A DNA stretch of 64,000 nt from Candidatus Heteroruminococcus faecigallinarum (GTDB lineage Bacteria > Bacillota > Clostridia > Oscillospirales > Ruminococcaceae), in assembly GCA_904387055.1 (NCBI GenBank), contig CAJFKV010000002.1:1-64000 (forward strand), written 5' to 3'. The first letter of the stretch is position 1. Each line of letters starts with the position of its first letter. Below are positions 7,485-63,432 of this stretch, piece after piece. A model generated the notes under the pieces. That model saw only the letters and a program-made list of their open reading frames with translations, was not told where the DNA came from and ran no database searches. The translations under genes were made by a program, and so were the position numbers.

Positions 7485-8590
<1,106 letters not shown>

Positions 8591-21242: not shown

Positions 21243-21506
21243 CTAAGCGGCCCTGCCCGCTGCATGGGCCCGGGGGGAAACCGCCGCCCGATGGGGAACG
21301 GCCTTCCGGCCGCGGCCCCGGCGGCCGGTATTCAAGGCGGCCGTAAAGGCAACATAGGCCACCTGAACCCCGATCACCACCTGCACCAGGGCCTGCCCCA
21401 GGCCGATCTGGCCGCTTTCCCAGGCCGTCAAGCTGCCCAGCACCCCCACGATAATGGCCAGCACCCCCAGGGCGCGAAAAAGATCTCTCCGCAGATGCCG
21501 CGTCAT
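21243..21506 (-). CDS. Two-TM small membrane protein, unknown function
   Basis: 87 aa; GGAGG RBS; own promoter TTGACA-17-TATGAT. Confidence 0.7.
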   Translation of the reverse strand: MTRHLRRDLFRALGVLAIIVGVLGSLTAWESGQIGLGQALVQVVIGVQVAYVAFTAALNTGRRGRGRKAVPHRAAVSPRAHAAGRAA

Positions 21507-21530
21507 TCTGCATTCCTCCTCTGTCGATAC

Positions 21531-21653
21531 ACAACCCTTTGTCGTCTATAGCCTAATCATAATACAACTCTCTGTTGTTGTCAATAGAATTTACAACTTT
21601 TATTCGTATTTTTTCATATACATCTTTACAAATACTACAGATAGTTGTATACT
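21531..21653. promoter_or_regulatory. Divergent promoter region with three 15-bp operators ACWACN5GTYGT
   Basis: O1 21531-21545 ACAACCCTTTGTCGT; O2 21564-21578 ACAACTCTCTGTTGT; O3 21634-21648 ACTACAGATAGTTGT; O2 in the spacer of minus promoter, O3 in the spacer of plus promoter TTTACA-17-TATACT. Confidence 0.85.
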
Positions 21654-21685
21654 AATCTTATGATAGGAGAAAGAGGGAAAGTTCC

Positions 21686-22300
21686 ATGTTTCCACAACGA
21701 CTGAAAGAACTGCGCAAGAGCCGCCGCGTCTCCCAGCGGGCCCTGGCCGCCGCTCTGGGGGTTACCCAGCAGGCGGTGGGCAAATGGGAGATGGGCCGCT
21801 CCACCCCCGACCCTGCTACCATCGCCCGGATTGCCGACTTCTTCGGCGCCAGTGCCGACTATCTGTTGGGGTGCAGCGGCCAGCGCCAGAGGGCGGCCTT
21901 TTCCGCCGGGGGGGAGCAGTACGTCTCTGTTCCCATCATCGGCACCGTCAAGGCCGGGTATGATGCCCTCGCCTTTGAGGAGGACTACGGCTCTGCCGTG
22001 GCCGACGTGCACAATCCCCAGGAATACTTTTATCTCTTGGTGCGGGGGGACAGCATGGAGCCCCAGATCAGCGACGGGGACCTGGCCCTGGTCCGCCGGC
22101 AAACGGATGTGGAATCCGGCCAGCTGGCCGTGGTCCTGATCGACGGGGAGGAAGGCACCCTGAAAAAGGTCATCAAGAAAGACGGGGCGGTCATCCTTCA
22201 GCCCTTCAACCCCGCCTATCCCACCCAGGTATTCATGGGCAAGGACCTGGAAAACCTGCAGGTGGTGGGCAAGGTGGTGGAGACCAAGCGCCGCTGGTAG
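21686..22300 (+). CDS. LexA/CI-like repressor (XRE HTH + S24 peptidase)
   Basis: RLKELRKSRRVSQRALAAALGVTQQAVGKWEMGRSTPD; VKAGYD cleavage-site-like; GDSMEPQISDGD and GTLKKV catalytic Ser/Lys motifs. Confidence 0.95.
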   Translation: MFPQRLKELRKSRRVSQRALAAALGVTQQAVGKWEMGRSTPDPATIARIADFFGASADYLLGCSGQRQRAAFSAGGEQYVSVPIIGTVKAGYDALAFEEDYGSAVADVHNPQEYFYLLVRGDSMEPQISDGDLALVRRQTDVESGQLAVVLIDGEEGTLKKVIKKDGAVILQPFNPAYPTQVFMGKDLENLQVVGKVVETKRRW

Positions 22301-59893: not shown

Positions 59894-60181
59894 CTACCGA
59901 TCCGGGTCCTTTGCCAGCACCTCCATCATGATCCGGGCCCCCAGACGGAAAGCATCCACAAAGACGGCGGCCTCCTCCATGGCCAGCACGGGCATATAAT
60001 CGTCCAGAAAGGCGGTCAGCTCCTCGGCGAGGTCGGGGTCCAGCCGGGCCACTCGTTCCAGCATCCGCTGCTGGTTCTGGGCGTGCTCCCGGGCCAGATG
60101 ACGATATTCTTCCTGCGAGGGGCGGCATCGTTCCGAGGGCATGATTTCTCCGTTGTAAAGGGCTTCCAGAACGCTGTACAT
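59894..60181 (-). CDS. DUF6809-like protein
   Basis: MYSVLEALYNGEIMPSERCRPSQEEYRHLAREHAQNQQRML; AGGAGAGG RBS. Confidence 0.75.
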   Translation of the reverse strand: MYSVLEALYNGEIMPSERCRPSQEEYRHLAREHAQNQQRMLERVARLDPDLAEELTAFLDDYMPVLAMEEAAVFVDAFRLGARIMMEVLAKDPDR

Positions 60182-60219
60182 AGTCGTATCCTCTCCTTTT
60201 TGGTTGGGTTTTCCAGCGG

Positions 60220-60458
60220 TTAGGAACGATAGAAAACCGTCCCTTTTTTTCGTCATTCGGCGCTGCACCGCTCAGTTCCCGTTCCAGCTGCTCCACGCCG
60301 CTTTGGAGTGCCATGCACATAAGCCGATTGCGGGAGTAATCGCTTTGGGCGGACAGCCGATCGAATCGCTGCTGCAGCTTTCTGTCCAGCCGCAGGGTCA
60401 TGGTAATGGCTTCTTTTTTCTCTTTGGGATATGCGATGGATGCAGATTGGCCGGACAT
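60220..60458 (-). CDS. Ribbon-helix-helix-like protein; zero frame has no stop here, needs a -1 shift at A7
   Basis: AITMTLRLDRKLQQRFDRLSAQSDYSRNRLMCMALQSGVEQLERELSG; slippery A_AAA_AAG at 60243-60250. Confidence 0.6.
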
Positions 60459-60699
60459 ACCGGTTCCCTCCCCTGTGTAGAATGGCTTTATTATACTGGA
60501 TACCGGTAGATCTTTCTATAACACATTTTGTGTCACAAATTCGGCAACGGGAACCGGCCCCTGTGGCGTTTGTTCCGGAGAAGGGCAAAACCTTCGGCCA
60601 CCGTTCATTTTATTGTGCTTTCCCCCTTGTGTTCTTCCATCGAATCTGCTAATATAAAAACAAAGATCATTTTTTATTTTTATTTTTTGAGGTGACGCA

Positions 60700-61320
60700 A
60701 TGCCAAAGGTAGCGTATTCTGAAAAGGATCGGGAGCGCATTCGAACGGCATTGCTTTCCGTCGGCCTAGAATTGATGGCTAAACAAGGCATCCAGCATAC
60801 CACTGTAGAGCAGATTTACAAACGTGTTGGCATATCGCGCACCTTTTTCTACTCTTTTTTTGCAACAAAAGAAGATCTGATTGTAGAGGCGCTGTACTTA
60901 CAGCAGCCCAAAATCATCCAGTATGTCCAAACGTTGATGGCCGACCCCTCTTTAAGCTGGCGTGCCGCAGTGAAACAATTCCTCCATGCCTGCTGCTATG
61001 GAGAACGAAATGGCATTGCTGTTTTGACAATCGAAGAGCAGCAGCTCCTCTTCAAGCGCCTGTCAAAAGAAAGCTACCAGATCTTCCGGCAAAAGCAATT
61101 TCGCCTTTTCGGAGCAATATTGGAAACCTTCGGGATACCGGCAGATGCTGCAAAGATTCAATTGTTTACAAATCTGAGCCTGCTCGCGATGATCGTCCGC
61201 CGTGCCATCCCCCATACGCTCCCCCTGTTTGTCCCGGAAGCTGCCGACGAAACGGTTGATTTCCAGCTGAACGCCATTGTGGATGCTCTGGAGAAATTGA
61301 AAACATCCCCCGCGCCATGA
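60700..61320 (+). CDS. TetR/AcrR family regulator
   Basis: RERIRTALLSVGLELMAKQGIQHTTVEQIYKRVGISRTFFYSFFATKEDLIVEALY. Confidence 0.95.
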   Translation: MPKVAYSEKDRERIRTALLSVGLELMAKQGIQHTTVEQIYKRVGISRTFFYSFFATKEDLIVEALYLQQPKIIQYVQTLMADPSLSWRAAVKQFLHACCYGERNGIAVLTIEEQQLLFKRLSKESYQIFRQKQFRLFGAILETFGIPADAAKIQLFTNLSLLAMIVRRAIPHTLPLFVPEAADETVDFQLNAIVDALEKLKTSPAP

Positions 61321-61430
61321 TTGTTGCGGGAACAACGAAATCCGTCCGAATTTTTGTGCTGCGACCTTCTATTCAGGCGGATTTTCTCTTCCTCAAAATA
61401 AATACAATTATTCAAATTTGTTTTTAATCG

Positions 61431-61528
61431 AATGCATTCTGTCGAAGGGGTAACGATACCGCCCCTTTTGGTCCAAACATGTCCAGAAGACTCCTGGTTG
61501 GTCAGTACAACCATGGCATTCGAATGCC
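61431..61528. promoter_or_regulatory. Two palindromes sharing GCATTC/GAATGC half-sites (operator candidates)
   Basis: GAATGCATTC 61431-61440; GGCATTCGAATGCC 61515-61528. Confidence 0.55.
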
Positions 61529-61577
61529 GTGTTCCATGTACCATTCCCTTTCAAAAAACATTTAGGAGGAAAGATGT

Positions 61578-62063
61578 ATGGGATTTTTTAGCAAGCTGTT
61601 TAACGGGCCGGAAATTGACATGGAAAAAAGCAATGCGAACGCGAAGAAAATGCGCGTTCTATTTAACCATGTGGTTGCAGACGGAGACCGGTACCGGTTG
61701 ATCTTTGGCTACACCGAGGATGTAAGTCGTTTCAATTATGGCTTTGTACATGGCAGCAAAACAAAAATCGGGAATTTAATAGTTGGCTGGAGCGAGGCCG
61801 ACCAAACAATTGTGGTCGTTCCCACCGTCCCCGATCTTTCCGGATGCGGCGATCCGACCTACTATCGACGCTCCGAAATTCTGAAAGCCTACCGCAACAA
61901 GTACCCTACAGATGCTTTTATCATTTACCCGGACAAAAAAGGGTATATCGGCATCAACGCCTATGACTGGCTGGAGGATGAAAAGCTGTACGTCTATGTG
62001 TCGCAGGACGAAGAGCTGGCCGCTTTTACCGACTTCTTTATGAATCGATTCGCAACAAAGTGA
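61578..62063 (+). CDS. Hypothetical protein, 161 aa
   Basis: AGGAGG RBS before ATG; MGFFSKLFNGPEIDMEKSNANAKKMRVLFNHVV. Confidence 0.8.
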   Translation: MGFFSKLFNGPEIDMEKSNANAKKMRVLFNHVVADGDRYRLIFGYTEDVSRFNYGFVHGSKTKIGNLIVGWSEADQTIVVVPTVPDLSGCGDPTYYRRSEILKAYRNKYPTDAFIIYPDKKGYIGINAYDWLEDEKLYVYVSQDEELAAFTDFFMNRFATK

Positions 62064-62242
62064 GGGACCCGATGCCTTTTGGAGAAATTGGAGCATTCCT
62101 GCTGTTTCTTGTGGCAGTATTTTTATTTGGCAATCTGTGGTTTCATATTGTAGAAGCGATCCGGAGGACGATCAAAAAGTTATTCACACGCCACAGCAGC
62201 CCTCCGGCATGGCACACGTTCCCTTCGGACAAGGAGGAATGA
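62060..62242 (+). CDS. Small single-TM protein, 60 aa (GTG start; GTGA overlap)
   Basis: IGAFLLFLVAVFLFGNLWFHIVEAIRRTIKKLF. Confidence 0.7.
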   Translation: MRDPMPFGEIGAFLLFLVAVFLFGNLWFHIVEAIRRTIKKLFTRHSSPPAWHTFPSDKEE

Positions 62243-63432
62243 AAATGGCCGATATCAATATAGACGAGATTCGGAAGCGGGCAATGCAGGCCAAGGAGCG
62301 CGCAGCCGCCTCCATGAAAAAAACCATCGAAAAAAGCGAGGAACAGCTTGACAAGATCCTGACTTCCCACCCGGAACAGCCTGCATCGGCGCCTGCCGCT
62401 GCAGCGGAAGAACAGGCCGCCGCCAATGCCCAGCGGCAGGTGGAAATTCTCGGCCAGGTGTTCGGGCCGGACAGCATGGCTCAGATGGCTGCCAATGAGG
62501 AGCTGCTGCAAAAGATGGTAAACGACCAGATTGCGCAGGCAGCCGGCATGACGGCAGAATCTATCATGGAGCAGCTGTTTGGCGAGGAGATGGGCGTGCT
62601 GGCAGCGGCGATGGAAACGCTGGAGATGGAAGAAGAGGACGAAGAGGAGGATCGTCCCTTTGATCTGGAGCTGGAAAACCATCTCTATGCCGTCCTGGAT
62701 GAAGCGATGGCGCGGATTGAGGCGATGCCTGAACCCGAGCCGGTTCCCTATCAGAAAAACGACGTCAGGTGGGAACGGTTCGGCATCCTTCTTTCCGGCA
62801 TCGTGTCCAATCTGAACAGCCACGATCTGCATGGAATGGACGTAGAGGAACACATCCCCGTTATGGAGCAGAAAATTGTGTCCCTTGTCCGCCGCTCCTG
62901 GGGGATTGACGGCCGCAGCGATCTGCTGGATACCATCCGCTATCTGGCTCAGGATGGATACATTCTGCGGTATCAGCTCTACGGCGAAGCATCCTCGCCG
63001 GAGGAGCTGATGGACGAATCCATGGACGAGGACGACCAGGCATCTGTCCGACGTGCATGGCGGTTTGTACAGCGGTATCAGCATCAATATGCCCCTGGCT
63101 TTATGGCCGGATGGGACATTGGCCGAGCGGCGATGCTGACCCGCTGGGGCTCCTATTTGGGCTGGATCACCGAAAGCGAAGCCGTCGGCATCCTCTGGGA
63201 TCTTTCCCAAAAGGTTGTAAAGGAGCTGCACAGCTGGCGGGAATTTGCCCAGTCCTATCTTCTGGGCGGTCTCATGTGGAAACTGCTGTGCGGCGACAAT
63301 TCCGCCGAAAGCTACCTGGGCTACCTTGCCGATGCCGCCGCCGACCTGTTGACTGGAAGAACCGAGGAAGACGGCGGGCAATGGCGCGAATGTCCTTGGC
63401 CCGCCCGAAGAAAAATCGGCTTCACCGAATAA
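62239..63432 (+). CDS. DUF1266 domain-containing protein
   Basis: ATGA overlap with upstream gene; SVRRAWRFVQRYQHQYAPGFMAGWDIGRAAMLTRWGSYLGWITESEA. Confidence 0.85.
   Translation: MKMADINIDEIRKRAMQAKERAAASMKKTIEKSEEQLDKILTSHPEQPASAPAAAAEEQAAANAQRQVEILGQVFGPDSMAQMAANEELLQKMVNDQIAQAAGMTAESIMEQLFGEEMGVLAAAMETLEMEEEDEEEDRPFDLELENHLYAVLDEAMARIEAMPEPEPVPYQKNDVRWERFGILLSGIVSNLNSHDLHGMDVEEHIPVMEQKIVSLVRRSWGIDGRSDLLDTIRYLAQDGYILRYQLYGEASSPEELMDESMDEDDQASVRRAWRFVQRYQHQYAPGFMAGWDIGRAAMLTRWGSYLGWITESEAVGILWDLSQKVVKELHSWREFAQSYLLGGLMWKLLCGDNSAESYLGYLADAAADLLTGRTEEDGGQWRECPWPARRKIGFTE

Follow-up and report, generated by a model that had tools for sequence, protein, structure and literature searches.

FddR of Francisella, a phage-like S24 repressor that regulates itself through a palindrome and faces a conserved divergent gene of unknown function, has been proposed as the seed of a rebuilt SOS network (PMC13148647). 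HdiR of Lactococcus and Streptococcus, a phage-type XRE-S24 protein, acts as a LexA substitute in LexA-less Firmicutes and controls cinA-recA in S. thermophilus, while in Bacteroidetes a non-canonical LexA, again a phage-type HTH plus S24 protein, runs the SOS network (PMC8565304). Among the SOS division inhibitors known so far, small size and a place in the membrane are shared but the proteins are mutually unrelated, and in B. subtilis the arrest ends by protease clearance (PMC6051672); SidA acts on FtsW (PMC4211646), and SosA without its last residues accumulates (PMC6851548).

The locus described here resembles all of these systems. It lies in the first 64,000 nucleotides of contig CAJFKV010000002.1 of Candidatus Heteroruminococcus faecigallinarum, a stretch that we call the window, and consists of a repressor of the same phage-type build as FddR, HdiR and the Bacteroidetes protein, facing a predicted small membrane protein, hereafter the effector, which is comparable in kind to the SOS-controlled SosA, YneA and SidA (PMC6851548, PMC6051672, PMC4211646). 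Judging from sequence comparison, the two genes very probably form a control module for the DNA-damage (SOS) response that has been overlooked.

The features of the locus are collected in Table 1, in which operators are scored against the consensus ACAAC-N5-GTTGT, with matches counted out of 10 positions. The two divergent promoters are both sigma-70-like, and they are the sole promoter-like sites in 21480-21700. An earlier note, made by a model from the letters of this DNA, had placed three operators here, two of them within the 17-bp spacers of the minus and plus promoters and the third just downstream of the minus promoter; this arrangement was confirmed, and every coordinate was checked and found correct.

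Table 1. Features of the divergent repressor-effector locus (21243-22300), numbered from the first letter of the window.
Feature	Position	Strand	Remark
Effector, 87-aa two-helix membrane protein (predicted)	21243-21506	-	Predicted N-in/C-in hairpin; basic tail ending GRAA
O1 operator (predicted)	21531-21545	unstranded	9/10 match; directly 3' of effector promoter
Effector promoter -10, TATGAT	21556-21561	-	17-bp spacer to -35
O2 operator (predicted)	21564-21578	unstranded	10/10 match; fills 17-bp spacer of effector promoter
Effector promoter -35, TTGACA	21579-21584	-	Promoter-like site search
Extra half-site ACAAC between O2 and O3	21593-21597	+	15-mer 8/10; same place in many relatives
Repressor promoter -35, TTTACA	21625-21630	+	Promoter-like site search
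O3 operator (predicted)	21634-21648	unstranded	9/10 match; fills spacer of repressor's own promoter, touches its -10
Repressor promoter -10, TATACT	21648-21653	+	17-bp spacer to -35
Repressor, XRE HTH + S24, 204 aa	21686-22300	+	LexA/lambda CI fold
Codons Ala90-Gly91, predicted self-cleavage site	21953-21958	+	Aligns with LexA/CI cleavage region
Codon Ser123 (GDSM), predicted nucleophile	22052-22054	+	Ortholog alignment
Codon Lys160 (GTLKK), predicted general base	22163-22165	+	Ortholog alignment

The repressor consists of an HTH_3 and a Peptidase_S24 domain, and its modelled fold (model pLDDT 78) is that of LexA and lambda CI, with the RecA-filament-bound forms of both among the structural matches. 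The XRE HTH, the A-G cleavage-like site and the S24 Ser/Lys motifs that the earlier note had read from the sequence are upheld; Ala90-Gly91, Ser123 and Lys160 do not vary among 10 orthologs (this protein and nine others at 51-69% identity). By its domains and residues, namely an HTH joined to S24, the Ala-Gly pair and the Ser/Lys pair, it is a predicted self-cleaving repressor of the S24 type to which LexA, CI and HdiR belong. An identity with LexA itself was ruled out, because the protein scores 71 bits against TIGR00498, below the cut-off of 110.95 and with only the S24 part matched, and because HTH_3 stands in place of the winged-helix domain. Among records labelled as phage the closest is MT839076 (54%), but this faecal scaffold of 4.6 kb carries no annotation and was not counted as phage evidence.

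In a sample of 299 genomes from this family, several of the relatives being metagenome bins, 56 have clear orthologs of the repressor, with a score gap of 294 versus 232 bits. The orthologs extend across about 20 genera, and the named carriers include Anaerotruncus, Marasmitruncus, Gemmiger, Fournierella, Anaerofilum, Pygmaiobacter and Faecalibacterium prausnitzii. At 70 of the 78 loci with enough upstream sequence, a two-helix ORF that has a start and a ribosome site diverges from the repressor, as against 9 of 612 random windows, so that co-occurrence in other genomes, which the earlier note had named as a check, is borne out, and the divergon is old and conserved. Five human F. prausnitzii-group genomes have no effector, and of the operators they keep just the one in the promoter of the repressor. 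Genome G027 has a transposase-like gene that splits the pair, with the repressor, the effector and the effector's operator all intact; an insert of this kind, IS110-like by eye, lies between the two intact genes at locus L083 (1111-2319) of a Gemmiger relative.

The operators recur together with the genes. The homologous upstream DNA, 17.3 kb in all, contains 183 sites with at least 9/10 matches, compared with 0.54 in shuffles. Of 72 homologous loci, 60 have an operator directly next to the effector -35, with a full 10/10 match in 46 of those 60, and in many relatives a second effector site equivalent to O1 lies about 34 bp from O2. In 57 loci an operator was found in the promoter of the repressor itself, mostly at 8 or 9 of 10, and this site is weaker than O2 in most relatives. 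Stronger effector sites combined with a weaker repressor site suggest that the effector is controlled tightly and that the repressor regulates itself more loosely.

From the distribution of sites in the window's own genome, the reach of the repressor there appears to be short. Four sites in the window have at most one mismatch to the operator, three of them at the locus (shuffles: mean 0.61, maximum 3), and across all 2.3 Mb of the genome exact copies of ACWAC-N5-GTTGT occur at O2 and O3 only, rather than also at recA or other repair genes as in a LexA substitute. A reversed control pattern, with one mismatch, is several-fold commoner genome-wide than the operator pattern. Since the exact motif is confined to O2 and O3 and the reversed control is commoner, the operator regulon of this genome would essentially be the locus itself, and a general regulon was ruled out, there being no site excess beyond the locus.

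This genome also retains LexA; its lexA promoter carries AAACATATGTTT, and in its recA promoter CGAACAAAGTTTCG, which nearly matches a canonical LexA box, stands together with a best operator match of 7/10. Because LexA is kept, the exact sites are local and recA reaches 7/10, we infer DNA-damage control of the pair in this genome from orthology. The recA gene lies at 7583-8545, about 13 kb from the repressor, and in five other genomes (G146, G225, G282, G301 and G178) the two genes stand within about 9-25 kb of each other on a single contig. The locus is flanked by MgsA/RarA and an esterase on one side and by FakA and Asp23 on the other, and no phage genes were seen in the flanks read. Elsewhere in the window, at 60000-63000, the G+C content falls to about 0.49 from 0.63 around a TetR-like regulator ORF (60700-61320, by eye); this segment is possibly a recent import.

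Support for an SOS role comes from the relatives. LexA is present in 8 of the 56 repressor carriers, two of which (G178 and G248) have weak LexA matches only, versus 160 of 243 non-carriers; the other 48 carriers are LexA-less. We examined the recA promoters of 54 carriers, 46 LexA-less and 8 with LexA. The operator was found in 29 of the 46 (27 at 10/10 and 2 at 9/10), leaving 17 without a good site, and in none of the 8, where the best match was 7/10 or less and where two genomes have a canonical LexA-type palindrome (AGAACAAATGTTCT or AGAACATTTGTTCT) in the recA promoter. Among shuffled recA promoters there was no 10/10 match, and 0.5% had a 9/10 match. The association between the recA operator and LexA absence has a Fisher p of 0.001, a value that is uncorrected for shared ancestry and so overstates independence. 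Exact operators precede recA in Gemmiger, Fournierella and Faecalibacterium, and they also stand in the uvrB promoters of Gemmiger formicilis and G. gallinarum.

That LexA-less relatives have the same operator in front of recA and uvrB supports the DNA-damage link that had been proposed for this repressor from the window alone. On these comparative grounds we are confident that it is a DNA-damage regulator, and hardly less so that it is a LexA substitute in the LexA-less clade, where its operator is found at its own promoter, at recA in 29 of 46 carriers, and in two Gemmiger at uvrB as well. In the LexA-less relatives the predicted targets reach beyond the divergent gene, the only divergent target named in the earlier note, and include recA and uvrB. 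Reading the recA-upstream palindromes as mere terminators (the stem in G027 is terminator-like) was rejected as a general account, since such sites turn up in many genera, set in different flanking sequence, and are missing from genomes that keep LexA. Y-family polymerases were ruled out as targets, with no operator of at least 9/10 in 14 such promoters.

Some other genes also lie behind operators in the Gemmiger group. In Gemmiger formicilis a perfect operator precedes a GyrB/ParE-like gene, below family cut-offs (L230, 1-1842, minus strand). Operators also precede prophage-like genes in Gemmiger-type genomes (L076, 2001-2045; L223, 2001; L079, 951), as if prophages there were listening to the host SOS repressor.

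In the repressor tree, which is midpoint-rooted with several branches open, the LexA-less carriers form one nested clade with full support (100/100), except that it includes one weak-LexA genome and that the LexA-less G194 falls outside; the strong-LexA carriers lie outside this clade, near the base.

The effector ORF is preceded by a ribosome-binding site, and the two hydrophobic helices and basic tail noted before are borne out. Its AF2 model is a helical hairpin (helices 3-31 and 36-59) followed by a low-confidence, mostly unstructured tail. Across 77 homologs the tail carries a strong positive charge (mean +7.5) and the loop a negative one or none, which predicts that both ends are cytoplasmic. 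The doubt whether this ORF is a genuine gene can be laid aside, since pN/pS is below 1 in all 59 comparable homolog pairs (median 0.39), indicating a real gene that is fast-evolving under purifying selection. It represents a novel protein family; Pfam and PHROG searches with the effector and 39 relatives gave no convincing family match.

The C-terminus is the best conserved part of the effector. It ends in -AA in 50 of 72 homologs (about 69%) versus 4 of 537 long ORFs (0.7%), a result that holds with an ORF selection giving no preference to a terminal A, and nearly all remaining homologs end in VA, SA or AAS. We take the -AA end to resemble an ssrA-type C-degron. This conserved end, together with the place of the gene beside an SOS repressor, suggests a short-lived checkpoint protein.

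Taken together, we consider it probable that the locus is an SOS unit, made of a cleavable repressor and a transient membrane effector, whose repressor captured recA and uvrB in LexA-less relatives. The repressor would bind the ACAAC-N5-GTTGT sites within the spacers of both divergent promoters, keeping the effector tightly off through O1 and O2 and exerting a looser autoregulation on its own gene through O3. When DNA is damaged, RecA filaments would stimulate its self-cleavage at Ala90-Gly91 and both genes would come on; the 87-aa hairpin would then act in the membrane for a short time, where it most likely holds back division while repair is completed, and be degraded through its degron-like -AA C-terminus. 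In Faecalibacterium, Gemmiger, Fournierella, Pygmaiobacter and other LexA-less relatives, the repressor would have taken over recA, and in two Gemmiger also uvrB, and would serve as the SOS master repressor. The sequences themselves show the anatomy of the locus, its conservation, the coding status of the effector, where the operators lie and their recruitment to recA and uvrB; repressor binding, RecA-dependent cleavage, effector degradation and division arrest are the steps that we infer. As to evolution, there is perhaps an even chance that a captured phage-type repressor at first controlled only a membrane checkpoint protein, with LexA present, and acquired recA and uvrB later on LexA loss, the effector being a new degron-tagged two-helix SOS family.

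Whether the effector is a division checkpoint protein is about evenly balanced in our judgement. That role, drawn by analogy with the known inhibitors, is favoured by its being fast-evolving, tightly repressed, degron-ended, small and membrane-bound, and an unstable checkpoint protein seems likelier than a holin or a TisB-like depolariser. The same SOS module could instead carry an effector that permeabilises or depolarises the membrane, sending badly damaged cells into dormancy or death. No holin, TisB or toxin family was matched, the few PHROG holin matches having E values of 0.07 or worse and involving single members only, so the 'TisB- or holin-like' label given earlier finds no support in homology. 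Its appeal lies in shape and control: a two-helix hairpin with a cytoplasmic basic tail is the form of class II holins (two TM, ends inside, charged C-terminus), a form that hydropathy, charge and the AF2 model suggest the effector may have, and tight double-operator repression suits a toxic product. However, no lysis partner was seen in the immediate neighbourhood read, and the conserved degron-like end better fits transient action than lysis; we find a permeabilising effector doubtful.

An ancient phage origin of the locus is likely. The repressor matches transcriptional repressors in PHROG (phrog_4, 3e-46) and has phage relatives at 36-40% identity, which would agree with a domesticated prophage immunity region, where a CI-like repressor controls a residual membrane gene of the phage and has no part in host SOS. 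Such a region is very improbable, given that no phage genes were seen in the flanks read, the conservation of the locus across so many genera and the operator in recA and uvrB promoters. Of the prophage-type orphan switch of the earlier note, the cleavable-repressor divergon with no phage attached stands, but the locus is better seen as a chromosomal module that likely contains the SOS master regulator of a large gut clade. Slighter still is the chance of a toxin-antitoxin-like addiction pair, in which an XRE-S24 repressor sensing some signal other than DNA damage restrains a membrane toxin. The layout of an XRE protein with a small membrane protein, and the intact state of both separated genes in G027, would agree with it, whereas the fixed chromosomal conservation and the recruitment of recA would not, nor would the human F. 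prausnitzii group, in which the repressor and its operator persist without the effector.

Our literature search found no report of an SOS regulator in Faecalibacterium or Gemmiger, which are abundant gut commensals. If the SOS reading is true, it would name their SOS regulator, its DNA site and its core targets, and would explain the missing LexA. It would also provide a natural series, from the unit alone beside LexA through the loss of LexA to the capture of recA and uvrB, for the rebuilding of a global network after loss of its master regulator, put forward a new small protein as candidate effector of the DNA-damage checkpoint and, since operators also precede prophage-like genes, hint at the prophage-inducing signal in these bacteria.

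The known systems also differ from this one. Gram-positive SOS inhibitors have a single TM helix and a C-terminus outside (PMC6851548), and YneA has a LysM domain, whereas the effector has two helices, a basic tail predicted to lie inside and an -AA end, with no sequence relation shown to SosA, YneA or SidA. As for the repressor, HdiR, which is likened here by its published description, differs in that its targets are mainly umuC loci, and no divergent small membrane protein is described for it in the account consulted (PMC8565304). The non-canonical LexA differs in its operator, CTAA-N5-TTAG, and is described as exclusive to Bacteroidetes (PMC8565304). FddR belongs to gammaproteobacteria, uses the operator GTG-N11-CAC and does not have recA induced (PMC13148647), while here sister genera display the step to control of recA and uvrB, and the bare unit can still be found in genomes that have LexA. 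By this comparison, the LexA-less sister genera appear to represent the path proposed for FddR, taken one step further.
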